Part shown: positions 46,610 to 57,034 of the stretch, in pieces
Layout: each line of letters begins with the position of its first letter
How positions within the stretch are numbered: position 1 is the first letter of the stretch
Origin: Conexibacter sp. CPCC 205762
GTDB lineage: Bacteria; Actinomycetota; Thermoleophilia; Solirubrobacterales; Solirubrobacteraceae
Assembly (NCBI RefSeq): GCF_030646155.1
Contig: NZ_JAUTDN010000006.1
Span: 62,001 to 126,000 of the forward strand
DNA: 64,000 nucleotides
Reading direction: 5' to 3'
Translations under genes and position numbers: made by a program
The notes under the pieces: model-generated
What the model saw: only the letters and a program-made list of their open reading frames with translations
What the model was told of the DNA's origin: nothing
Databases searched by the model: none

Positions 46610-47786
46610 ACATCGCATCGCCGACATCCGCGTCCGGCGGATCGGCTTCTCGCGCACGCCGCAGACGCTGCGCGCCCACCTCGTCAGCCCGCTCAGTGCC
46701 CACCCGGGCGCCGAGCCGGCCGGCGGCGGCAGCTGGTTCGGCGGCTGCGCGCTCGTCGTCGTCGAGGTCGAGACCGACAGCGGCCTCGTCGGGCTCGGCA
46801 CGGCAGGCGGCTTCAGCGCCGTCCCCGCGACCGTGATCGAGGAGCACCTGCGCCCGCTGATGCTCGGCGCCGATCCGTTCGCGGTCGAGCGCAACTGGGA
46901 CCTGATGTACCGCTCGGTCGCGCGGCTCGGCGTCAGCGGCGCCGTGCTGGCCGGCGTCAGCGGCATCGACATCGCCTGCTACGACATCATGGGCCAGGCG
47001 CTCGGGGTGCCGGTCTACGAGCTGATCGGCGGCCGCACGAGCGAGCGGATCCCCGTCTACGCGAGCCGTCTCTACGCGCTCGACGACCTCGACGAGCTGG
47101 CGCAGGAGGCGCGCCGCTGGCGCGACGCCGGCTTCAGGCTCGTCAAGCAGCGCTTCGGCTTCGGCGCGCGCGACGGCCTCGCCGGCATCCGCCGCAACGT
47201 CGAGCTGGTGCGGACGGTGCGCGAGGCGATCGGCGACGACGTCGAGCTGGCCGCCGACGCCTACATGGGCTGGGACGTCGAGTACGCGCTGGAGATGGTC
47301 AAGCGGCTGGCCGAGTTCGACCTCAAGTGGCTGGAGGAGCCGCTGCTGGCGCACGACGTCGGCGGCTACCGCCGGCTCTGCCGCGAGAGCCCGATCCCGA
47401 TCGCCCACGGCGAGCACCAGTTCGGCCGCTACGGCTTCGCGCGCGTGATCGAGGCCGAGGCGGCGCACCTGCTGCAGCCCGACGTCAACCGCGTCGGCGG
47501 CATCACCGAGGCGCGCAAGATCTTCGCGCTCGCCGCCGCCCACGACCTGCCGGTGATCCCGCACTCGAACGAGCTGCACAACCTCCACCTGGTGATCTCT
47601 CAGCAGAACGCACCGATGGCCGAGTACTTTCCGGATGTCGAGCCGGACACAGGCAACGAGCTGTTCTGGAAGATCTTCGAGGGGGCTCCGGTCGCCCGGG
47701 ACGGACATGTCGAGCTGAGCGAGCAGCCGGGACTCGGGCTGGCGCTCCGCACGTCCGCGATCGAGCAGCTGACGACCCATGTCTGA
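46602..47786 (+). CDS. enolase-superfamily sugar-acid dehydratase, rhamnonate-dehydratase-like
   Basis: 394 residues. The MR/MLE capping domain (GGGSWFGGCALVVVEVETDSGLVGLG, in part) precedes the barrel, with metal ligands in ELAADAYMGWD (Asp, about 224), WLEEPLL (Glu, about 246) and AHGEHQFGRYGF (Glu, about 271). A catalytic His candidate sits in VIPHSNELHNLH (about 321). The GEHxxxxxGF segment and the N-terminal SW(F)GG pattern resemble L-rhamnonate dehydratases. It would remove water from an aldonate to give a 2-keto-3-deoxy acid. It indicates that this operon uses an oxidative, non-phosphorylating route. Confidence 0.8.
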   Translation: MSEHRIADIRVRRIGFSRTPQTLRAHLVSPLSAHPGAEPAGGGSWFGGCALVVVEVETDSGLVGLGTAGGFSAVPATVIEEHLRPLMLGADPFAVERNWDLMYRSVARLGVSGAVLAGVSGIDIACYDIMGQALGVPVYELIGGRTSERIPVYASRLYALDDLDELAQEARRWRDAGFRLVKQRFGFGARDGLAGIRRNVELVRTVREAIGDDVELAADAYMGWDVEYALEMVKRLAEFDLKWLEEPLLAHDVGGYRRLCRESPIPIAHGEHQFGRYGFARVIEAEAAHLLQPDVNRVGGITEARKIFALAAAHDLPVIPHSNELHNLHLVISQQNAPMAEYFPDVEPDTGNELFWKIFEGAPVARDGHVELSEQPGLGLALRTSAIEQLTTHV

Positions 47787-48585
47787 GAAGGAGAGCCCCG
47801 TGAAGTGGAGCGTGCGCGCGATGAAGGTCGGCCACTGGACGGCCGTCCCCGGTCCCGAGCTGCACTGGATGTCGCACTGGGACGAGTGGCAGCAGGTCGA
47901 CGTGCTGATGCTCGTCGCCAGGAGCGACGACGGCAGGGTCGCGCTCGTCAACACCGGCCCGGGACAGGACTACCTGCCGTTCATGAACGCCCACTGGGCG
48001 AGAGTCGTGCGCGAGGACTGCAGCTTCGACGTCGCGCCGGAGCAGCGGATCGAGGCGATCCTGGCCGCCAACGAGCTGACCCCCGACGACGTCGACTACG
48101 TCATCTGCACGCCGTTCCAGGCGTACACCGTCGGCAACCTGCCGCTGTTCGAGCGGGCGCGGATCTGCCTCTCGCGCAGAGGCTGGGACTTCTTCTTCCA
48201 GAACCCCTATCCGAATCACCCGCACGACTACCGGCCGATGGTCTTCCCGCCGCGCGTGCTCGAATGGCTCGTCTACGAGGCGCACGACCGGATCGTGCTG
48301 CTCGACGACGAGCACGAGCTGGCGCCGGGCCTGCGGACGTTCTTCACCGGCGCCCACCACCGCGCCTCGATCGCGGTCGACCTCGACACCGCCAACGGCC
48401 GCGTGATCGCCTCCGACGCCGCCTTCCTGTACGAGAACGTCGAGCAGAGCACGCTGCTCGGCATCAACGAGAGCATGTACGAGGCGCTCGACGCCTACGC
48501 GCGCTTCCGCCGCGACGCCGACCACTTCGTGCCGCTCTGCGACGGCCGCGTCTTCGACCGCCACCCGGGCGGGGTGATCGCGTGA
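47779..48585 (+). CDS. metallo-beta-lactamase-fold protein with a degenerate metal site
   Basis: 268 residues. The fold resembles the N-acyl-homoserine lactonase group of MBL proteins: VDVLMLVARSDDGRVALVNTG strand region, DDVDYVICTPFQAYTVGNLPLF, TGAHHRASIAVDL and VIASDAAFLYENVE. In active members the second segment carries HxHxDH (as in SSHLHFDHAGN); here it reads TPFQAYTVGN, so three or four metal ligands are missing, while the later His and Asp remain. In a sugar operon a lactonase would be expected between the dehydrogenase and dehydratase steps. The lost ligands mean either a different chemistry or a binding role. Confidence 0.7.
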   Translation: MSEKESPVKWSVRAMKVGHWTAVPGPELHWMSHWDEWQQVDVLMLVARSDDGRVALVNTGPGQDYLPFMNAHWARVVREDCSFDVAPEQRIEAILAANELTPDDVDYVICTPFQAYTVGNLPLFERARICLSRRGWDFFFQNPYPNHPHDYRPMVFPPRVLEWLVYEAHDRIVLLDDEHELAPGLRTFFTGAHHRASIAVDLDTANGRVIASDAAFLYENVEQSTLLGINESMYEALDAYARFRRDADHFVPLCDGRVFDRHPGGVIA

Positions 48586-49349
48586 CCGTGCCCGTCAGCG
48601 AGCGCGTCGCGCTCGTCACCGGCGCCGCACGCGGGATCGGCCGCGGGATCGCGCTGCGGCTCGCCGCCGACGGCTACCGCGTCGCCGTCAACCACCCGAG
48701 CGACGACGACGGGCCGCAGGAGACGCTGCGGCTGATCGCGGCGGCCGGCGGCGAGGCGATCGGCGTCAAGGCCGACGTCGGCGTCGCCGCGCAGGCGCGC
48801 GGGCTCGTCGCCGAGGTGGTCGAGCGGCTCGGCCGTCTCGACGTCGTCGTCTGCAACGCCGGCGTCTGCCCGTTCGGCCCCTTCGACGAGGTCACCGAGG
48901 AGACCTGGGACCGCACCCACCAGGTCAACCTGAAGGGCACCTTCCTCGTCAGCCAGGAGGCCTCGCGCGTGCTGATCGCGCAGGGCGACGGCGGCCGCAT
49001 CGTCGCGATCTCGTCGATCTCGGCGATCGCCGGCGGCTCGATGCAGACCGCCTACACGCCGACGAAGGCGGGCCAGGTCTCGCTGATGCGGTCGCTGGCG
49101 ATCGCGCTCGGTCCGCACGGCATCACCTGCAACTGCGTCGAGCCCGGCACGATCGAGACCGACCTCAACGCGGAGGTGCTCGCCGACCCGGCGATGCGCG
49201 AGCACTATGCCTCCCGCATCCCCACCCGCCGCATCGGCGCGCCGGCCGACATCGCCGCCGCCGTCGCCTTCCTCGTCTCCGACGACGCCGCCTACGTCAA
49301 CGGGACCGAGATCCTGGTCGACGGCGGCGCGCTCGTGAACCTCGCCTAG
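48582..49349 (+). CDS. short-chain dehydrogenase, probable sugar dehydrogenase
   Basis: 255 residues from a GTG overlapping the previous stop (GTGA). Classical SDR: VTGAARGIGRGIALRLA (about 12), CNAGVCPFG (about 90), ISSISAIAGG (Ser, about 142) and YTPTKAG (Tyr/Lys, about 155), with the C-terminal NGTEILVDGGAL. In this setting it probably oxidises the sugar to a lactone, or a ketodeoxy acid intermediate. A frame upstream is open but lies inside the preceding gene. Confidence 0.85.
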   Translation: MTVPVSERVALVTGAARGIGRGIALRLAADGYRVAVNHPSDDDGPQETLRLIAAAGGEAIGVKADVGVAAQARGLVAEVVERLGRLDVVVCNAGVCPFGPFDEVTEETWDRTHQVNLKGTFLVSQEASRVLIAQGDGGRIVAISSISAIAGGSMQTAYTPTKAGQVSLMRSLAIALGPHGITCNCVEPGTIETDLNAEVLADPAMREHYASRIPTRRIGAPADIAAAVAFLVSDDAAYVNGTEILVDGGALVNLA

Positions 49350-49364
49350 CAGGGAGAACCACCG

Positions 49365-50546
49365 ATGAGCATCACCAGCACCGACGCCGACGCCCAGTTC
49401 GCCCGTGTCGAGCCGCTGCTCGACGAGCTGGAGGTCGTCACCGCCTCGTGGGCGTTCGGCAACGCCGGCACCCGCTTCAACGTCGTCCAGCATCCCGGCT
49501 GCCCGCGCAACGTGTGGGAGAAGCTCGACGACGCCGCGACCGTCCACGAGCTGACCGGCGGCGCCGGCAGCGTCGCGCTGATCGTCCCGTGGGACGTCGT
49601 GCCCGACCCGCAGCAGCTGGTCGATGGGCTGGCGCAGCGGAACCTCAAGCCGGGGCCGGTCCGCACCAACCTGTTCCAGGACGACGACTACATGCTCGGC
49701 ACGCTCTGCCACCCCGAGCAGCGCGTCCGCGACAAGGCGATCGGCCACATCCGCGAGTGCGTCGAGCTGGCCCAGGCGGTCGGCTCCGACGTCGTCGGGA
49801 TCTGGCTGCCGGACGGCACCAACTACCCCGGCCAGGACTCGATCATCGAGCGCAAGCGGCGGCTGGAGGCGTCGCTGGACGAGGTCCACGCGCTCTTCCC
49901 GCAGGAGCTGACGCTGCTGCTGGAGTACAAGTTCTTCGAGCCCGCCTTCTACTGGACCGACCTGCCCGACTGGGGCACCTCGCTGATGCACTGCCAGCGG
50001 CTCGGTGACAACGCGAAGGTGCTCGTAGACATGGGCCACCACGCCGCCCACACGAACGTCGAGGGCGTCGTCGCGCAGCTGCTCGACGTCGGCCGCCTCG
50101 GCGGCTTCGACTTCAACAACCGCGCCTACGCCGACGACGACCTGATCGTCGGCTCGGTCGACCCGTTCGAGCTGTTTCTGGTGATGGACGAGCTGGTCTC
50201 CAACTGGGGCAGAGCGAGAGAGGTCGTGCTCGCGCTCGACCAGAACCACAACATCGAGGAGAAGATCCCCGCGGTCGTCCGCTCGGTCCTCAACATCCAG
50301 GAGGCGGCCGCGAAGGCCGCGCTCGTCGACCGTGAGGCGCTCGCCGTCACGCAGGCGGCCGGCGACGTGCTCGGCGGCCACGAGCTGATCCTCGACGCGT
50401 ACAACACCGACGTGCGGCCGCTCGTCGCGCGCTGGCGCGCGCAGCACGGCGCGCCCGAGCAGCCGCTGCGCAGCTATCGCGAGAGCGGCCGCAGAGAGCA
50501 GCTGATCGCCGAGCGCGGCAGCGCCGGCGACGGCGGCTGGGGCTGA
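49365..50546 (+). CDS. RhaI-like sugar isomerase paralogue with altered metal ligand
   Basis: 393 residues, clearly homologous to rhaI at 20815 along its full length (LEYKFFEPAFYWTDLPDWG, VLVDMGHHAAHTNVE, DDDLIVGSVDPFELFL). At the place of His260 in that protein (GGFHFNNRKYGDDDL) this one has Asp249 (GGFDFNNRAYADDDL), a residue known as a metal ligand in RhaI-type isomerases. The acidic cluster and the GHH motif remain. Either the metal site tolerates Asp or the reaction has changed. A ribosome site (AGGGAGAA) precedes the ATG. Confidence 0.82.
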   Translation: MSITSTDADAQFARVEPLLDELEVVTASWAFGNAGTRFNVVQHPGCPRNVWEKLDDAATVHELTGGAGSVALIVPWDVVPDPQQLVDGLAQRNLKPGPVRTNLFQDDDYMLGTLCHPEQRVRDKAIGHIRECVELAQAVGSDVVGIWLPDGTNYPGQDSIIERKRRLEASLDEVHALFPQELTLLLEYKFFEPAFYWTDLPDWGTSLMHCQRLGDNAKVLVDMGHHAAHTNVEGVVAQLLDVGRLGGFDFNNRAYADDDLIVGSVDPFELFLVMDELVSNWGRAREVVLALDQNHNIEEKIPAVVRSVLNIQEAAAKAALVDREALAVTQAAGDVLGGHELILDAYNTDVRPLVARWRAQHGAPEQPLRSYRESGRREQLIAERGSAGDGGWG

Positions 50547-50551
50547 TCGCC

Positions 50552-52105
50552 GTGAGCGCCCAGATCGCCACCTTCCGCTCCGCCGACCCGCGCAGCGGCG
50601 CGCCGCTGGAGCCAGCCTTCGCCGACGCGCAGCCGGCGGCGGTGGTCGCCGCCGCCGACCGCGCCGCGGCCGCCTTCGCCGCCGAGTGGGAGGCGCGCAG
50701 CTTCTCCGACGCCGCGCTGCTGTGCGCGATCGCCGACGGCATCGAGGCCTCGGCCGCGGCGCTGCGCGAGCGCGCGCAGGCCGAGACGGGCCTGCCGGCG
50801 GCGCGGCTGGAGGGCGAGCTGGCGCGCACGGTCGGTCAGCTGCGCGCCTTCGCCGCCGTCGCCGAGCGCGGCGACCTGCTCGACCCGATCGTCGACCGCG
50901 CCGATCCCGGCGCGACGCCGCCGAAGCCCGACCAGCGGCGCGCGAACGTGCCGATCGGACCGGTCGCGGTCTTCGCCGCCAGCAACTTCCCGTTCGCCTT
51001 CAGCGTCGCCGGCGGCGACACCGCCGCGGCGCTGGCGGCCGGCTGCCCGGTCGTGCTGAAGGCGCATCCGGCGCATCCGCGCACCTCCGAGCTGACCGCC
51101 GCGGTCGTCGCCGAGGCGGTCGCGTTCGCGGGCGCGCCGGCGGCGTGGTTCCAGCTGCTGCACGGCAGCGGGCCGGCGGTCGGGCAGGCGCTCGCGCGCG
51201 CCGACGCGATCGAGGCGGTCGCCTTCACCGGCTCGTTCGCCGGCGGCAGCGCGCTCGCGCGCGCCGCCGCCGAGCGGGCGCGCCCGATCCCGGTCTTCGC
51301 CGAGATGGGCTCGCTCAACCCGCTGCTGGTGACGCCCGCCGCCGCGGCCGCGCGCGGCGAGCAGATCGCCGACGGCCTCGCGGCCGCGGTCACCGGCTCG
51401 GCCGGGCAGCTGTGCACGAAGCCGGGCCTGATCGCGCTCGTCGACGACGCCGCCGGCCGCGCGCTCGCGGCGCGGTTGGCGCAGCGGCTGGGAGAGGTCG
51501 AGCCGGCGGCGATGCTGACGGCGCGGCTGCGCGACGGCTTCGCCACCGCGGCGGCGCTGGCGCTCGGCGACGAGCGCGTCGAGACCGTCGTCGCGGCCGC
51601 CGCCGACCGGCGCCCCGGCGCCTGGCAGGCGCCGCTGCTCGGCGCCGTTCGCGCACGCGCGCTGGAGGCCGGCGACGCGCTGCTGGAGGAGCTGTTCGGG
51701 CCGGCCGCGCTGATCGCCTGGTGCGAGGACGCCGCCGAGCTGGCGGCGCTGCCGGCGCGGCTGCCGGCGGCGCTGACCGGCAGCGTCCACGGCGAGCGCG
51801 GCGAGCCGCTGCTGGCGACGCTCGTGCGGAGGCTGGCGGCGCGCGTCGGCCGCGTCGTCGTCGACGGCTACCCGACCGGCGTCGCCGTCGGCTGGGCGAC
51901 CGTCCACGGCGGCCCCTGGCCGGCGACGAGCGCGGCGGCGACGACGTCGGTCGGGATGACGGCGGCGCTGCGGTTCATGCGCCCGGTCGGCTACCAGGGG
52001 CTGGCGGACGAGCTGCTGCCGCCTGCCCTGCGCGACGCCAACCCGCTCGGGCTGGTGCGGCGGCTCGACGGCCGTCTGACCGACGCCGCCGTCGAACGGC
52101 GCTGA
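50552..52105 (+). CDS. aldehyde dehydrogenase, ketoglutarate-semialdehyde type
   Basis: 517 residues from a GTG 5 bases after the isomerase stop. ALDH superfamily: FAASNFPFAFSVAGGDTAAAL (in part SNFPFAFSVAGGD), Glu251 in FAEMGSLNP and catalytic Cys288 in GSAGQLCTKPG. The long form with these motifs is the alpha-ketoglutaric semialdehyde dehydrogenase group, which ends oxidative pentose and aldarate pathways; lactaldehyde or another aldehyde would be the alternative here. It is the last gene of the operon; its stop and that of the convergent small gene form the palindrome TGAGCGCTCA (52103-52112). Confidence 0.82.
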   Translation: MSAQIATFRSADPRSGAPLEPAFADAQPAAVVAAADRAAAAFAAEWEARSFSDAALLCAIADGIEASAAALRERAQAETGLPAARLEGELARTVGQLRAFAAVAERGDLLDPIVDRADPGATPPKPDQRRANVPIGPVAVFAASNFPFAFSVAGGDTAAALAAGCPVVLKAHPAHPRTSELTAAVVAEAVAFAGAPAAWFQLLHGSGPAVGQALARADAIEAVAFTGSFAGGSALARAAAERARPIPVFAEMGSLNPLLVTPAAAAARGEQIADGLAAAVTGSAGQLCTKPGLIALVDDAAGRALAARLAQRLGEVEPAAMLTARLRDGFATAAALALGDERVETVVAAAADRRPGAWQAPLLGAVRARALEAGDALLEELFGPAALIAWCEDAAELAALPARLPAALTGSVHGERGEPLLATLVRRLAARVGRVVVDGYPTGVAVGWATVHGGPWPATSAAATTSVGMTAALRFMRPVGYQGLADELLPPALRDANPLGLVRRLDGRLTDAAVERR

Positions 52106-52109
52106 GCGC

Positions 52110-52250
52110 TCACACGAGCCAGACGCGCAACGCGACGACGAGCGCGATCAGCAGGATCAGCAGCAGCTGGCGGACGAACAGGCGCCGCTCGGCGCGGTCC
52201 TGCTCGCGCGCCTCGAGGTCGCCGCTGTCGATCAGGTCGGGGAGCGTCAT
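52110..52250 (-). CDS. 46-residue single-span membrane protein
   Basis: Starts at the ATG 52248-52250, overlapping the stop of the glycosyltransferase gene (ATGA). The first 27 residues are charged (DLEAREQDRAERRLF) and helical; the last about 18 (LLLILLIALVVALRVWLV) form one membrane span ending at the C-terminus. Too short for most gene callers but strongly supported by coupling and by a near-identical degenerate copy at 40023. A small accessory subunit of the glycosyltransferase is the simplest idea. Confidence 0.75.
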   Translation of the reverse strand: MTLPDLIDSGDLEAREQDRAERRLFVRQLLLILLIALVVALRVWLV

Positions 52251-53701
52251 GTCAGCTCCCCGACCGCACCGACCTTCTCCGTCTTGTCCCATCTCATCTC
52301 CGCACCGCGCGCCTCCTTGACGTAGGCGGCGGCGGTGATCGCGCACAGCAGCGGGCCGTAGCCGACGATGTAGATGCCGGGTGCGAGCAGGCCGCGCAGC
52401 CGTCTCGGCAGCACGCTGTCGAGCAGCTTCAGCAGCCACGCTGCCAGCATCGAGGCCGACAGCCAAACGTAGGCGAACAGCAGGATGCCGGTCGCGAGGC
52501 CGTCGGCGGGGTCGATCCCGGCGTCGCGCAGCCAGCCGGCGAAGGTGTCCTCGAACAGCGGCGGATAGAGCGCGTAGAGGATGATCAGCAACGCCACCAG
52601 GCCGGGGAAGAAGATCCCCTCGCGCCAGGTCCGGCGGGCGGTCGCGGGGTCGATCGAGAAGCTCGACAGCGTCACGAACAGGTACGTGACGACGTTCAGG
52701 AACCAGAGCGTGCGGAAGACCTCCAGCGAGGTCCCTCTGTCGAGGAACCACAGCCCCAGCAGCGCGCCCGAGGAGGTGAGCATGAAGACCGGCATCAGGA
52801 AGACCGAGAACCAGATCAGCGCGAAGCCGATCCCGCCGAGCGAGCCGGCGCTGCCGCGCCGCAGCCAGATGCGGCGGAAGCGGCGCGTCACCTGCACGTT
52901 GCCGCGCCCCCAGCGCAGCCGCTGCTTCCACAGCCCGGTGATCTCGCGCGGCTCTTCGGCCCAGACGATCGCGTTGGGCTCGAACACGACCCGCTTGCCG
53001 GCCAGCTGCACGCCGAGCGTCGTGACGGTGTCCTCGGCGAGCGTCGCGGTGTCGATCTGGCCGCCGACGGCGTCGAGGCTCTGGCGCCGCAGCAGCTGCG
53101 CGCCGCCGGCCAGGCAGGCCTGCGCGCCGAGCACGTTCTGCGCTCGCCGCGCCGCCGCCTGCGCGGTCACGTACTCGAACGAGACGAAGCGGTTCATCCA
53201 GTTGCCGGGGCGGCTGCCCTCCTTGATGTAGCCGGTGACGGCGCCGACCTGCTCGTCGGCGAGGTGGCGCGTCATCCGCCGCAGCGACGGCGGCGTGAAG
53301 ATCACGTCGGCGTCGATCACCAGCACCGCCTCGTACCAGCCCTCGGCGCGGATGATCCGCAGCCCGTGGTTGATCGTGTGGGCCTTGCCCTCGCCGCCCT
53401 TCTCACGCCGCAGGTGGAAGACCGTGCCCGGGTGCAGCTCGGCCTTCGCCAGCACCTTCTGCGGCGTCTCGTCGGTCGAGGCGTCGTCGACGACGTAGAC
53501 GCGCAGGCGGTCGCCCGGGTACTCCAGCGCCAGCAGCTGCTCGATCGTGCGCTCGATCACCGCCGCCTCGTTCCAGGCCGGGATCACGATCGCGACGCGC
53601 GGATAGAACGGCTCGCGCGGCGTCGTGCGCCGCAGGCCGTGGAAGCTGGCGAGGAGGAACTGATAGCAGCCGGCGATCAGCGGGATCGCGCCGACCAGCA
53701 C
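52247..53701 (-). CDS. processive family 2 glycosyltransferase, membrane-bound
   Basis: 484 residues from a GTG at 53699-53701, inside the first membrane segment, so the true start could be a little upstream although no better start codon is seen. GT2 motifs: VVDDASTDE (about 65), LVIDADVIF (about 121), LAEDTVTT (about 217) and QRLRWGRG (QxxRW, about 253). The C-terminal half has about five membrane spans. This is the architecture of poly-N-acetylglucosamine, cellulose and hyaluronan synthases, which polymerise and export a glycan. Cysteine- and PilZ-type c-di-GMP domains are absent. It is part of the cassette with a deacetylase, an ATP-grasp enzyme and a PHP protein. Confidence 0.87.
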   Translation of the reverse strand: MLVGAIPLIAGCYQFLLASFHGLRRTTPREPFYPRVAIVIPAWNEAAVIERTIEQLLALEYPGDRLRVYVVDDASTDETPQKVLAKAELHPGTVFHLRREKGGEGKAHTINHGLRIIRAEGWYEAVLVIDADVIFTPPSLRRMTRHLADEQVGAVTGYIKEGSRPGNWMNRFVSFEYVTAQAAARRAQNVLGAQACLAGGAQLLRRQSLDAVGGQIDTATLAEDTVTTLGVQLAGKRVVFEPNAIVWAEEPREITGLWKQRLRWGRGNVQVTRRFRRIWLRRGSAGSLGGIGFALIWFSVFLMPVFMLTSSGALLGLWFLDRGTSLEVFRTLWFLNVVTYLFVTLSSFSIDPATARRTWREGIFFPGLVALLIILYALYPPLFEDTFAGWLRDAGIDPADGLATGILLFAYVWLSASMLAAWLLKLLDSVLPRRLRGLLAPGIYIVGYGPLLCAITAAAYVKEARGAEMRWDKTEKVGAVGELT

Positions 53702-53768
53702 GAGCGCGACGAGGATCGGCCGGAGGACGTCGTCGACCTGCAGGAGAACTCCCGGATCGCGGCGCGCG

Positions 53769-54494
53769 TCAGCGCGCCGCGGCCTCCGACAGCTCGCGCA
53801 CGACCCGCAGGCAGTGGTCGTAGCGGCCGATCGTGTCGCGTCTGTGGCTGTCGGTGCTCATCAGCAGCGGCACGCCGCGCGCGACGAACGGCGCCAGCGT
53901 CGCCGCCGACGGCGTGCGGTAGCGCTCGTTGACCTCGATCCGGTTGCCGGTGTCGTAGGTCGTCTGCGCGAGCGACTCGATCAGCTGCAGCGGCACGTCC
54001 TCCTCGCGCACGCCGATCTTCGGCAGGATGCTGAAGATGTGCGCGATCACGATTCTGCCTGGATGCTGCGGCAGGCAGCTCTCGGTCGCCTGCAGCAGGC
54101 CGGCGACGACCTCCTCGGCGCGGTAGCGGCCCGACTCGATCCCCTCGCGCACCTCGTCGGGGTGGTGGACCCCGTCGGCCATCGGCACCTGGTGGTCGGC
54201 GGCGTAGATCCAGCTGACGCCGTCGAGCGGGCCGTCGGGCATGTCGAGCGTGCCGGCGGTGTCGAGCAGCTTCGCCTCGATCCCGCAGTGGAGCGTCAGC
54301 GGCGTCTCGGTCTCCAGCGCCGCGACCGCCGCCGTGTACTCCGGCAGCCAGGCGGTGTCGCGCCGCACGTGGTCGACGCAGCACAGCTCGACGAGGCCGA
54401 ACGCCTCCGCCTCGGCGACGTTGGCCTCGATCGTGTCGGCGCCGTCGGAGAAGGTCGAGTGGACCTGCATGTCCTGCGTCGCGGCGGCGATCAT
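53769..54494 (-). CDS. PHP-domain metal-dependent hydrolase
   Basis: 241 residues from the ATG at 54492-54494, overlapping the ATP-grasp stop. PHP motifs: MQVHSTFSDGADT (metal His, about 11), CCVDHVRRD, LHCGIEAKLLD (Glu), HIFSILPK and the closing STDSHRRDTIG. Proteins like this hydrolyse phosphoesters (histidinol phosphatase-like) with two or three metals. Role in the cassette might be to release phosphate from a sugar or nucleotide precursor. No substrate can be named. Confidence 0.83.
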   Translation of the reverse strand: MIAAATQDMQVHSTFSDGADTIEANVAEAEAFGLVELCCVDHVRRDTAWLPEYTAAVAALETETPLTLHCGIEAKLLDTAGTLDMPDGPLDGVSWIYAADHQVPMADGVHHPDEVREGIESGRYRAEEVVAGLLQATESCLPQHPGRIVIAHIFSILPKIGVREEDVPLQLIESLAQTTYDTGNRIEVNERYRTPSAATLAPFVARGVPLLMSTDSHRRDTIGRYDHCLRVVRELSEAAAR

Positions 54495-55504
54495 GCTCCG
54501 CTCCCGACGCGCGCGGCGGCCTCGCGCAGCGCGACGATCTCGCCGAAGTCGAAGAAGTGCTCGGTGAACGTCCGCACCATCGCGATCTCCTCGAACGGCA
54601 GCGGCCCCTGCGGCGGCGGCGCGCCGAGCGCCTCCGCGACCGCCAGCGACGGCATGTCGATCCCGGCCGCGATCGTCAGCGGCATCGTGCCGGGGAAGCG
54701 CGGGTTGACCTCCAGCAGCGCAGGCTCGCCGCTGCTGGCCTCCTTCACCTGCACGTTGGCGACGGTCGTCAGGCCGATCAGCCTCGCGACGGCGGCGCCG
54801 AACGCCTCCAGCGCCGGGTCGTGGACGGTGCGGCCGGTGATCGCGATCCCGGAGTCGACCTTCAGCCGCTCGCGCGGGACGACCGCCAGCACCTCGCCGT
54901 CCTGGCCGCAGAGCACGTCGAGCGAGTACTCGGGGCCGGGCAGCAGCTCCTGGATCAGCAGCGTCGCGTCGCGCTCCAGCGCCGCCAGCTCCGCCTCCGT
55001 GGCCAGCAGCGCGATCCCGCGCGAGCCGCTGCCGCTGCGCGGCTTGACGATCACCGGCAGGTCCGGCTCGGACGGGTCGAAGGAGCCGTCGACGAGCCAG
55101 CAGCGCGGCGTTCGCACGTGTCTGCGGCAGCGCGCGTCGAGCGCCCACTTGTCGAGGCAGACGGCGAGCGTCTGCTCGTCGGCGAGCACGAGCGTGACGC
55201 CGGCGGCGGCGAACCGCTCGCGCTCGCGCGCCAGCGGCAGCAGCTCGCTGTCGACCGTCGGCACGAGCACGTCGACGGCCTCGCGCTCGCACAGCTCGAA
55301 GATCCGCTCGGCGAAGGCGGGGTCGTCGCCGCGCGGAAGGATGAAGCGCTGCCCCGGCGGGACGTGGTAGAGGCCGGCGGCGTACGGGTCGATGTCGCCG
55401 GCCAGCAGCGTCAGCCTGTCGCTGGCGATCGACTGCATGACGGCGATTCCGGAGGGGCCGCCGGCGCCGGTGACGAGCACGCGGCCGGGCAGGTCAACGG
55501 GCAT
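54491..55504 (-). CDS. ATP-grasp enzyme, CarB-like
   Basis: 337 residues. An N-terminal preATP-grasp fold (RVLVTGAGGPSGIAVMQSI, about 8) leads to DVLVPTVDSELLPLA, the ATP-grasp lid VIVKPRSGSGSRGIALL (about 151) and the metal-binding LLEVNPRFPGTMPL (about 265). It should join a carboxylate to an amine or other nucleophile with ATP. With a deacetylase beside it (free amino sugar) one can imagine re-acylation of an amino sugar with an amino acid; this is inference. Its start overlaps the deacetylase gene by 11 bases. Confidence 0.82.
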   Translation of the reverse strand: MPVDLPGRVLVTGAGGPSGIAVMQSIASDRLTLLAGDIDPYAAGLYHVPPGQRFILPRGDDPAFAERIFELCEREAVDVLVPTVDSELLPLARERERFAAAGVTLVLADEQTLAVCLDKWALDARCRRHVRTPRCWLVDGSFDPSEPDLPVIVKPRSGSGSRGIALLATEAELAALERDATLLIQELLPGPEYSLDVLCGQDGEVLAVVPRERLKVDSGIAITGRTVHDPALEAFGAAVARLIGLTTVANVQVKEASSGEPALLEVNPRFPGTMPLTIAAGIDMPSLAVAEALGAPPPQGPLPFEEIAMVRTFTEHFFDFGEIVALREAAARVGSGA

Positions 55505-56564
55505 CGGCTACCTCCTGAGGGAGCGTGGAGAGGGAGTCGTCGGCGCTCGTGTCGGCCTCGCGCACGACCTCCAGCGGCTCGACGTAACGGGCTTGGGTGA
55601 AGCGCGACCAGTAGCGGGCGGTCGAGCGCATCAGCTCCTCGTCGAGGTAGGCGCGGACGGCGGTCTGCGAGGCGAAGGCGCGGATCACCTCCAGCTTTCT
55701 GTCGACGTAGGGGTCGATCGCGACGAACTTCGTCGGCTTGAACTCGACCGTCGTCGAAGGCGCCTGGTAGCAGTAGACGCGCGGGATCCCGCGTGCGGCC
55801 ACGAGCGTCGCGTGGTGGACGTTGCGGTGGTCCTGGTGGACGTCCTTCGACGTGTGCGTGTAGACCGTCGTCGGCAGCACCTGGTCGATCACGCGCTTGA
55901 TCACGCTGATCGTCGTGCCGCCGTCGCTGACGCTCGTGTCGGACAGGTCGGTGTGGAACAGGCGCGCGCCCATCAACTCGGCCGCGAGCTGCGACTCGGC
56001 GGCGCGCTCGGCCGCCTCGCCGCCCTGCTCGCCGCCGGTCAGCGTCAGCACCGCGACCTCGTGGCCGGCGGCGCTGTGGCGCAGCAGGATCCCGCCGACG
56101 CCGATCTCGACGTCGTCGGGGTGGGCGCCGACCGCGAGCACCCGCTCGCGCCCCTTCGCGCGCCGGTCGCGTGTCAATGCCATCAGCTCACGCGCCTTCG
56201 CGACCAGCTTCGGCGGCTGCACCGGCTTGGTCAGGTAGTCGTCGGCCCCGGCGCGGATCGCCTCGACGGCGTGGTCGAAGCTGGCGTGGCCGGACAGCAT
56301 CAGCACCGCCAGGTCGGGCTGCGCCGACTTCGCGTGGCGGACCATCTCGTGGCCGTTCATGCCCGGCAGGTCGATGTCGGACAGCAGCAGGTCCCACGGC
56401 CGCAGCGAGAGCTGCGCGACCGCCTGCTCGGCGCTCGGCGCCCAGACGATCTCGCCGAGCGGCGTCAGCAGCTCGATCACGACGGCCGCCAGCACGTCGT
56501 CGTCCTCGACGAAGAGGATCAGCCCGTCTTGTCCCTGCGTTCCCGCCATGCCTCCGGTCACCAT
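55494..56564 (-). CDS. response-regulator receiver fused to a PIG-L (LmbE) deacetylase
   Basis: 356 residues; start ATG 56562-56564, with GTG 56561 and ATG 56549 as alternatives. Residues about 15-130 are a receiver domain: FVEDDDVL acidic pair, LLLSDIDLPGMNG with the phospho-accepting Asp (about 61), LMLSGH (Ser of the T/S switch) and LTKPVQPP (Lys). From about 140 comes a PIG-L deacetylase: AVGAHPDDVEIGVGG (about 142) and HQDHRNVHHAT (about 247) provide the zinc ligands. Such enzymes remove N-acetyl groups from amino sugars. The fusion suggests that phosphorylation directly switches catalysis. First gene of the cassette, divergent from an HPt protein. Confidence 0.88.
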   Translation of the reverse strand: MVTGGMAGTQGQDGLILFVEDDDVLAAVVIELLTPLGEIVWAPSAEQAVAQLSLRPWDLLLSDIDLPGMNGHEMVRHAKSAQPDLAVLMLSGHASFDHAVEAIRAGADDYLTKPVQPPKLVAKARELMALTRDRRAKGRERVLAVGAHPDDVEIGVGGILLRHSAAGHEVAVLTLTGGEQGGEAAERAAESQLAAELMGARLFHTDLSDTSVSDGGTTISVIKRVIDQVLPTTVYTHTSKDVHQDHRNVHHATLVAARGIPRVYCYQAPSTTVEFKPTKFVAIDPYVDRKLEVIRAFASQTAVRAYLDEELMRSTARYWSRFTQARYVEPLEVVREADTSADDSLSTLPQEVADAR

Positions 56565-56644
56565 TCCCTGCTTGACCGGAACCTAGCGCTCCGATCGCCG
56601 ATTCGGGGAGTGGGATGCCGCTTCGCGTGGCATCATCGGCGCAA

Positions 56645-57034
56645 ATGCACACGGAACCGCTCGATCAGCAGGTCATCGGCTCGCTCTCAGCCGAGCTGGG
56701 CGACCCGGCGACCTTCGCCCGCCTCGTCCGGCTCTACCTCGATCGGCTCAGCGACCGGCTCGAGAACGTCGTCAACGCCGAGGACGCGGCCGCGATGGCC
56801 GCCGCCGCCCACTCGCTGAAGTCCGCCAGCGGCACCTTCGGGGCCGCGATCGTCGCTGACATCGCCGGCCAGCTGGAGGCGATCGGCGAGCGCGGGGAGG
56901 AGGCGCCGGCGCCACTGATCGACGGCATGCTCGACGCTGCCGAGGACGCCCGCAGAGCGCTCACCCAGCTCGTCGCCGACGCCGAGGCGGAGGCCGACGT
57001 CGAGGCCGACAACGCGCCCGACGACGCCGGCTAG
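56645..57034 (+). CDS. histidine phosphotransfer (HPt) protein
   Basis: 129 residues from the ATG at 56645. A four-helix HPt domain with the phospho-His in AAHSLKSASGTFGA (His56), flanked by an N-terminal helix (FARLVRLYLDRLSDRL) and a C-terminal helix. The last 20 residues are very acidic (Asp/Glu/Ala). It stands 80 bases from the divergent receiver-deacetylase gene, making that receiver its natural partner. No histidine kinase is in the window, so the phosphate must come from elsewhere. The stop overlaps the convergent DUF1697 stop. Confidence 0.88.
   Translation: MHTEPLDQQVIGSLSAELGDPATFARLVRLYLDRLSDRLENVVNAEDAAAMAAAAHSLKSASGTFGAAIVADIAGQLEAIGERGEEAPAPLIDGMLDAAEDARRALTQLVADAEAEADVEADNAPDDAG

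Follow-up and report, generated by a model that had tools for sequence, protein, structure and literature searches.

In a 64,000-nucleotide stretch of DNA from Conexibacter sp. CPCC 205762 (contig NZ_JAUTDN010000006.1, positions 62,001 to 126,000 of the forward strand; the whole stretch is referred to here as the window), a receiver domain is fused to a PIG-L/LmbE-type N-deacetylase. The gene for this fusion heads a cassette that also encodes an ATP-grasp ligase, a PHP-fold protein, a processive-type glycosyltransferase (GT2) and a 46-residue membrane protein, and a stand-alone HPt protein is encoded divergently from it. We propose, with a probability of about 0.55, that the cassette is a polysaccharide operon controlled by a phospho-signal, in which a phosphorelay would act directly on a cytoplasmic N-deacetylation step. 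The wiring is well supported by genomics; its switching, substrate and product we infer. The parts themselves are ordinary, and it is their combination that is unusual and widely conserved.

The fusion protein and the cassette in the window

A single open reading frame (ORF) matches both the receiver family PF00072 (80.4 bits) and the PIG-L family PF02585 (86.2 bits, cut-off 28.2). The receiver has E20/D21, the phospho-acceptor D63, S91 and K113, and the PIG-L part has the zinc motifs H148-D150-D151 and H243-D245-H246. These scores and residues confirm the fusion with intact phosphorylation residues and zinc motifs that had been proposed in an earlier, sequence-only reading of the window, and on them the protein can be assigned to the PIG-L/LmbE family and is a putative response regulator. 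Conservation was analysed in an alignment of 88 rows, in which one contig is included twice (L009 and L035). The phospho-Asp is kept in 86 rows, the Ser/Thr in 85 and the Lys in 80, while HPDD and the Asp and last His of the HxDH motif are present in all 88 and its first His in 85. Exceptions to the receiver Lys are five Alphaproteobacterial members, a Chryseobacterium member (L110), L114 and the frame-broken L107. In the five Alphaproteobacteria the Lys is replaced by Arg, and the receiver there may therefore act without phosphate.

The structure model of the fusion is confident (pLDDT 91.5, pTM 0.80), with a helix at residues 117–138 joining the receiver to the PIG-L domain. Its best fold matches are a Bacillus cereus deacetylase, TT1542, BshB and archaeal diacetylchitobiose deacetylases; PorX and PleD are also among the matches, presumably through the receiver. 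Because it is fused to a receiver, the PIG-L domain should act inside the cell. BshB1 is the best curated model for the domain, but at 80.5 bits against a cut-off of 182.5 this identity was rejected. Around some fusions, long open frames of up to 927 aa suggested larger fusions; those of L035 and L008 were judged by eye to be stop-to-stop extensions before the receiver. In a Frankiaceae bin (L108:9701-11488), a single open frame directly behind a kinase has two tandem receivers before the PIG-L domain.

On the minus strand the genes run in the order fusion, ATP-grasp, PHP, GT2 and 46-aa membrane protein (Table 1). Three of the four junctions overlap when read from the window sequence: fusion and ATP-grasp genes by 11 nt, ATP-grasp and PHP genes by 4 nt, and the GT2 gene and the gene behind it by 4 nt. 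All the downstream genes named in the sequence-only reading, which had described them as mostly coupled, are thus present, as is the divergent HPt gene, with 50 nt between the two start codons. The PHP and GT2 genes are separated by 67 nt, or by 25 nt if GT2 starts at CTG 53743. No ATG, GTG or TTG start lies upstream of GTG 53701; the in-frame CTG, 5 nt after GGGAG, would add 14 residues and is a possible rare start codon. A scan of the 50-nt region between the HPt and fusion genes gave no match to a sigma-70-type promoter, and promoter and terminator scans yielded nothing.

The ATP-grasp protein matched PF15632 (103 bits) and PF02655 (50 bits), both above cut-off. The PHP protein barely exceeded its Pfam cut-off (27.1 against 26.4 bits); its model (pLDDT 93.9) matches the folds of PolX, histidinol phosphatase and YcdX. 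In its HxH motif, Gln replaces the first metal His, as in L116, L035 and L118. At this position 47 of 52 rows have His and four have Gln. The other residues that are invariant in a 31-row alignment (H4, H34, E65, H93, H144, D207 and H209) are intact.

GT2 scored 121 bits with PF13641, above the Pfam cut-off, and contains a QRLRW motif. Over 64 rows the processive motifs are D143/D145, E236-D237, Q273 (62 of 64) and R276-W277 (63 of 64; alignment numbering), and by its DxD, ED and QxxRW motifs the protein would count as a processive polysaccharide synthase in the general sense. Assignment as PgaC/IcaA, the closest curated model, was rejected (132.3 bits against a cut-off of 422.3). Across twelve loci from Bacteroidota, Rhodothermales and proteobacteria, identity to the window proteins is 47–59% for GT2 and 34–49% for the fusion. 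A tandem GT2 pair follows the PHP gene at L036:13047-15990 (55% and 57% identity to the window GT2), and in two Cellulomonas loci (L071 and L085) a fusion gene paired with a kinase gene has, about 3 kb away on the opposite strand, a GT2 of a more distant type, together with an ATP-grasp hit.

The 46-aa protein, which has zero Pfam or NCBIfam matches, is by its recurrence and gene overlap a conserved, translationally coupled partner of GT2. An ORF of 43–92 aa with one strong hydrophobic span lies directly behind GT2 in 48 of 60 loci. A control scan for the same type of small ORF found one after PHP in 3 of 52 loci and after ATP-grasp in 1 of 63. When the start window is narrowed, 42 of the 48 small ORFs show a 4-nt start/stop overlap, and their median length is 49. 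The proteins share the pattern ExxxDxRxERxL, a membrane span and then V-x-x-R, often VRE.

Table 1. Features of the cassette, in window coordinates
Feature	Position	Strand	Basis or domain limits
Receiver–PIG-L fusion, 356 aa	55494..56564	(-)	receiver ~15-125, PIG-L/LmbE-type N-deacetylase ~137-336
ATP-grasp ligase, PylC/CarB-like, 337 aa	54491..55504	(-)	Pfam
PHP-fold phosphoesterase-like protein, 241 aa from ATG 54494	53769..54494	(-)	Pfam and predicted fold
Processive-type GT2, 484 aa from GTG 53701, PgaC/IcaA-like below curated cut-off	52247..53701	(-)	Pfam, motifs
Single-span membrane protein, 46 aa	52110..52250	(-)	ORF conservation
Stand-alone HPt protein, 139 aa	56615..57034	(+)	Pfam
Divergent HPt/fusion intergenic region, 50 nt start to start	56565..56614		sequence

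Conservation of the gene set and its signalling neighbours

A search of GTDB genome contigs returned at least 489 relatives of the fusion, of which the 80 most similar to the window protein were kept. The 88 loci analysed were the window, L036-L114, L116-L122 and L144, with L035 excluded as lying on the same contig as L119; they are not phylogenetically independent, and many are from Microbacterium and Cellulomonas. Judged by record titles, many of them those of metagenome bins, and within the best 80 of at least 489 relatives, the fusion occurs in Actinomycetota (among them the common soil genera Microbacterium, Cellulomonas, Leifsonia and Blastococcus), Bacteroidota, Rhodothermales, Gemmatimonadota, Pseudomonadota (Alpha-, Beta- and Gamma-) and Myxococcota. 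Rhodothermales belong to Rhodothermota, a separate phylum in NCBI, which brings the total to about six phyla. No plasmid record contained the fusion at E 1e-40.

Gene content was counted in the 65 well-flanked loci, in which the fusion has over 5.5 kb of sequence to either side. The sequence-only reading had suggested testing whether the HPt, ATP-grasp, PHP and GT2 genes co-occur with the fusion, and for the enzymes they do: within 6 kb, ATP-grasp is found in 48 loci, GT2 in 45 and PHP in 40. All three partners are present in 35 loci, ATP-grasp with GT2 in nine, ATP-grasp with PHP in four, GT2 alone in one, PHP alone in one, and none in 15. In 35 of 35 loci with the full set the order is fusion, ATP-grasp, PHP, GT2, a count that disregards strand; in L047 the orientation of GT2 is reversed. 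A separate HPt gene, on the other hand, is not fixed. HPt profile matches of any kind lie near the fusion in 12 of 88 loci, one of them CheA (L038); in its place, most loci have a plain kinase. Actinomycetota usually have PHP, which is absent from the Gammaproteobacterial loci seen. In six of the latter (L075, L078, L081, L093, L094 and L095) a low-molecular-weight protein tyrosine phosphatase, identified with a Pfam search of L094, lies near the cassette where Actinomycetota have PHP; capsule systems include tyrosine phosphatases of both folds.

Overall, the cassette is rare. Of 121 relatives, 8 have the full-length fusion, as do 2 of the 296 genomes sampled from the phylum (G000 and G272); two further matches in that sample (G304 and G344; four in total) cover PIG-L only. 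Both searches scored only the best first-look candidates. GT2 orthologs (E up to 1e-60) were found in five of the 121 relatives, all within the eight fusion genomes, and in 2 of the 296 genomes of the phylum sample, the same two that have the full fusion; fusion genomes G007, G031 and G047 are without one. The five-of-five overlap would arise by chance with a probability of about 3e-7 (56/198,792,594) if the genomes were independent, which they are not, as they represent two genera. In a Mantel-type comparison of pairwise identities, ten of ten pairs of cassette proteins were positively correlated (rho 0.63-0.88, reached by 0 of 300 permutations), a result given no weight because shared species history alone could produce it.

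Companion genes were sought by clustering ORFs with length and codon-GC filters, with antisense clusters removed by eye. A TPR protein lies near the cassette in eleven mostly Gram-negative loci (L037, L039, L078, L079, L093-L095, L100, L102, L111 and L113). All seven tested gave weak matches to the TPR part of PgaA; their best match is the generic PEP_TPR_lipo model, and export through the TPR protein is therefore a lead only. That the companion ends in an outer-membrane barrel is a guess. Identification as YaiO was rejected, since none of the seven matches TIGR04390, which E. coli YaiO does, and one compared with YaiO by BLASTP showed no meaningful similarity. A conserved protein of about 117–128 aa also lies near the cassette in several phyla (L039:3688-4038, L047:15683-16027, L080:3446-3841, L094:6413-6799 and L099:5520-5903); the L099 copy has no Pfam match.

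Linkage to histidine kinases was measured with a profile derived from nine kinases of the same set of loci, each confirmed by Pfam, a score above 100 bits being taken as a kinase core. Of the 67 loci with both flanks covered, 47 have a core no more than 2.5 kb from the cassette; over all rows it is 56 of 88. The density is 56 cores in 410 kb within 2.5 kb compared with 14 in 826 kb at 2.5–9 kb, an eight-fold enrichment. Five Blastococcus loci lacking a near kinase have one at 3.3–3.8 kb, and a kinase adjoins nine of the 15 fusions that lack all three enzymes. Among the loci at large, many in Actinomycetota have the kinase gene after GT2, and six from Gammaproteobacteria and one from Burkholderiales have it before the fusion, on the other strand.

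The window HPt protein (PF01627, 43.2 bits against a cut-off of 24.6) has H66 in the motif AAHSLKS and aligns with HPt domains of hybrid kinases. Within its genus, the position divergent from the fusion is occupied by an HPt protein in the window and in L116 (41.6 bits), and by an OmpR-type regulator plus kinase in L117. The loci L118 and L119 gave no kinase or HPt match in the available stretch, and L119 has a GGDEF-EAL protein. In G007, G031 and G047, from another genus of the same family, a PAS-HisKA-HATPase-REC-HPt kinase is divergent from the fusion, and in L039, from Gemmatimonadota, ATP-grasp is followed by a REC-REC-HPt kinase. About 1 kb upstream of the fusion, Blastococcus loci have HPt (L048, with an OmpR-type regulator in between) or receiver-HPt frames (L066 and L068), L044 being recognized by profile only. 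Some loci have a second receiver protein. HPt is one of several types of putative phosphate donor at the fusion-adjacent slot. The histidine kinase linkage and the recurring HPt genes strengthen the earlier idea that phospho-signalling is coupled to a glycan cassette, an idea that needs amending in that HPt is not the sole type of donor.

A possible mechanism and its alternatives

We infer the following course of events, including phosphotransfer to the window receiver, its control of the enzyme, the order of the steps and export. A sensor kinase would phosphorylate Asp63 of the receiver; elsewhere this would usually be the adjacent kinase, and in the window the kinase is probably unlinked, with phosphate passed through the adjacent HPt protein. 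Phosphorylation would alter how active the fused PIG-L domain is, how it oligomerises or where it is located, and may plausibly switch deacetylation. The PIG-L domain would strip N-acetyl groups off a cytoplasmic amino-sugar intermediate, leaving an amine to which the ATP-grasp enzyme may then attach a carboxylate. The PHP protein would take phosphate off an intermediate, and GT2 with its small membrane partner would polymerise and export the chain.

Several findings weigh against a phospho-controlled polysaccharide operon. The sequence-only reading had held that fusions without these neighbours would speak against it, and they do exist: they are the 15 of 65 counted above, although nine of them keep the adjacent kinase. 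Twenty of the 67 fully flanked loci, the window among them, have no kinase within 2.5 kb. A hybrid PAS kinase on a different contig of the window genome (40% identity to the L120 kinase) is a candidate donor for the window HPt protein, no more; it carries its own HPt domain, and the choice of kinase is a guess. Receivers are eroded in some members, by the Lys-to-Arg change in the five Alphaproteobacteria and further in Chryseobacterium and L114. The small ORF was missed in 12 of 60 loci, among them the family relatives L035 and L118, as well as three distant GT2s (L071, L085 and L086). A polymer product is argued from the GT2 type and the TPR companions, whose best family matches are generic TPR models, and a kinase close to an operon could be acting on its transcription and nothing else.

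It is also possible, if rather unlikely, that the receiver serves as a regulatory tether, its phosphorylation controlling dimerisation or the docking of PIG-L on a membrane synthase complex while the deacetylase is always active. Many receivers work through dimerisation, the joining helix in the confident model would suit such a role, and the retention of the receiver in Alphaproteobacterial members despite eroded phosphorylation residues is as expected of a partly docking module. However, the phospho-Asp and Lys are kept in nearly all rows, and the model is silent on dimers or partners. An alternative concerning the product, which we regard as improbable, is a small modified amino-sugar compound, such as a glycolipid or thiol-like metabolite, with PIG-L deacetylating a GlcNAc conjugate to which ATP-grasp adds an amino acid. 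The bacillithiol and mycothiol pathways likewise combine a PIG-L enzyme with a ligase, and BshB1 is the best curated PIG-L model; that score is, however, far under its cut-off, GT2 is of the processive QxxRW type with a conserved membrane partner, and a TPR protein is added in several Gram-negative loci.

The kinase and HPt neighbours might instead be incidental, or feed another regulator, leaving the fused receiver vestigial. The 20 loci without a near kinase are in favour of this, as are the OmpR-type regulators that adjoin the fusion in L117 and L048 and the second receiver proteins of some loci. The local enrichment of kinases, their presence beside cassette-free fusions and the intact receiver residues of most rows argue against this explanation, which we consider very doubtful.

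Returning to the phospho-controlled operon, we tentatively raise a bolder form of it: the fusion may define a new class of response regulator with a sugar N-deacetylase output. A phosphorelay would post-translationally set the exchange of N-acetyl for free amine or, through ATP-grasp, N-aminoacyl groups before GT2 and its subunit of about 50 aa polymerise, and in many phyla a signal would thereby determine how a surface polymer is charged or decorated. Known two-component control of surface polysaccharides is mostly exerted via transcription or cyclic-di-GMP. With a receiver attached to the deacetylase, a signal would, if this holds, have a direct and fast route to polymer chemistry, and the polymer system would have a previously unnoticed small synthase subunit.

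Comparison with known systems and flanking genes

The Pga/Ica system shares with the cassette a GT2 of the same broad type, a small membrane partner and a deacetylase, and several Gram-negative relatives add a TPR protein weakly similar to the TPR part of PgaA. It differs in that the window GT2 falls far short of the PgaC cut-off and the TPR companions fit generic models better than PgaA; the window deacetylase is of PIG-L type and presumably cytoplasmic, whereas PgaB/IcaB is a secreted CE4 enzyme. The small protein, which is conserved and coupled, may correspond to PgaD/IcaD, but no family model matches the window copy. To our knowledge, the Pga system has no counterparts of ATP-grasp, PHP or the kinase.

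In E. coli K-12, the yaiS-yaiP-yaiX-yaiO stretch likewise has YaiS, a PIG-L protein with 34% identity over 173 aa, beside a GT2, YaiP (25%), and an outer-membrane protein, but receiver, ATP-grasp, PHP and kinase are absent from the annotated stretch; among the matches listed from the open full text of PubMed Central there was no functional paper on it. Two exosortase-associated clusters (L142 and L143) contain PIG-L, GT2 and ATP-grasp proteins with 42–43%, 32–33% and 34–35% identity to those of the window. Their PIG-L lacks a receiver, and an exosortase-family protein (TIGR04178) lies between GT2 and ATP-grasp. Since these clusters and the E. coli genes are receiver-less, the deacetylase/GT2 core recurs with different attachments, and the receiver may have been added onto a pre-existing core. 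An XrtP-associated identity of the L142 and L143 GT2s was rejected (96–99 bits against a cut-off of 520). Both loci also encode secreted-looking proteins (L142:4159-4926, minus strand; L143:10580-12841, plus strand) with a C-terminal hydrophobic stretch and basic tail, by eye like exosortase targets.

CheB, PleD and PorX are response regulators with enzymatic output and, like the window fusion, join a receiver to a catalytic domain. Among the matches listed from the open full text of PubMed Central there was no response regulator with a PIG-L or sugar-deacetylase output and no description of a receiver–PIG-L protein or of this gene set; subscription papers and preprints lie outside that scope. 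BshB and the N,N'-diacetylchitobiose deacetylases share the PIG-L fold and are among the nearest solved folds to the fusion model. They act on small substrates and have no receiver, and the window PIG-L fails the BshB1 cut-off.

Sugar-catabolism genes on the plus strand (47779-52105) converge with the cassette and end 4 nt from it. They include a gene resembling L-rhamnose isomerase (49365-50546; 497 bits against a cut-off of 531), an aldehyde dehydrogenase gene (50552-52105) and, by eye, an SDR-like frame.

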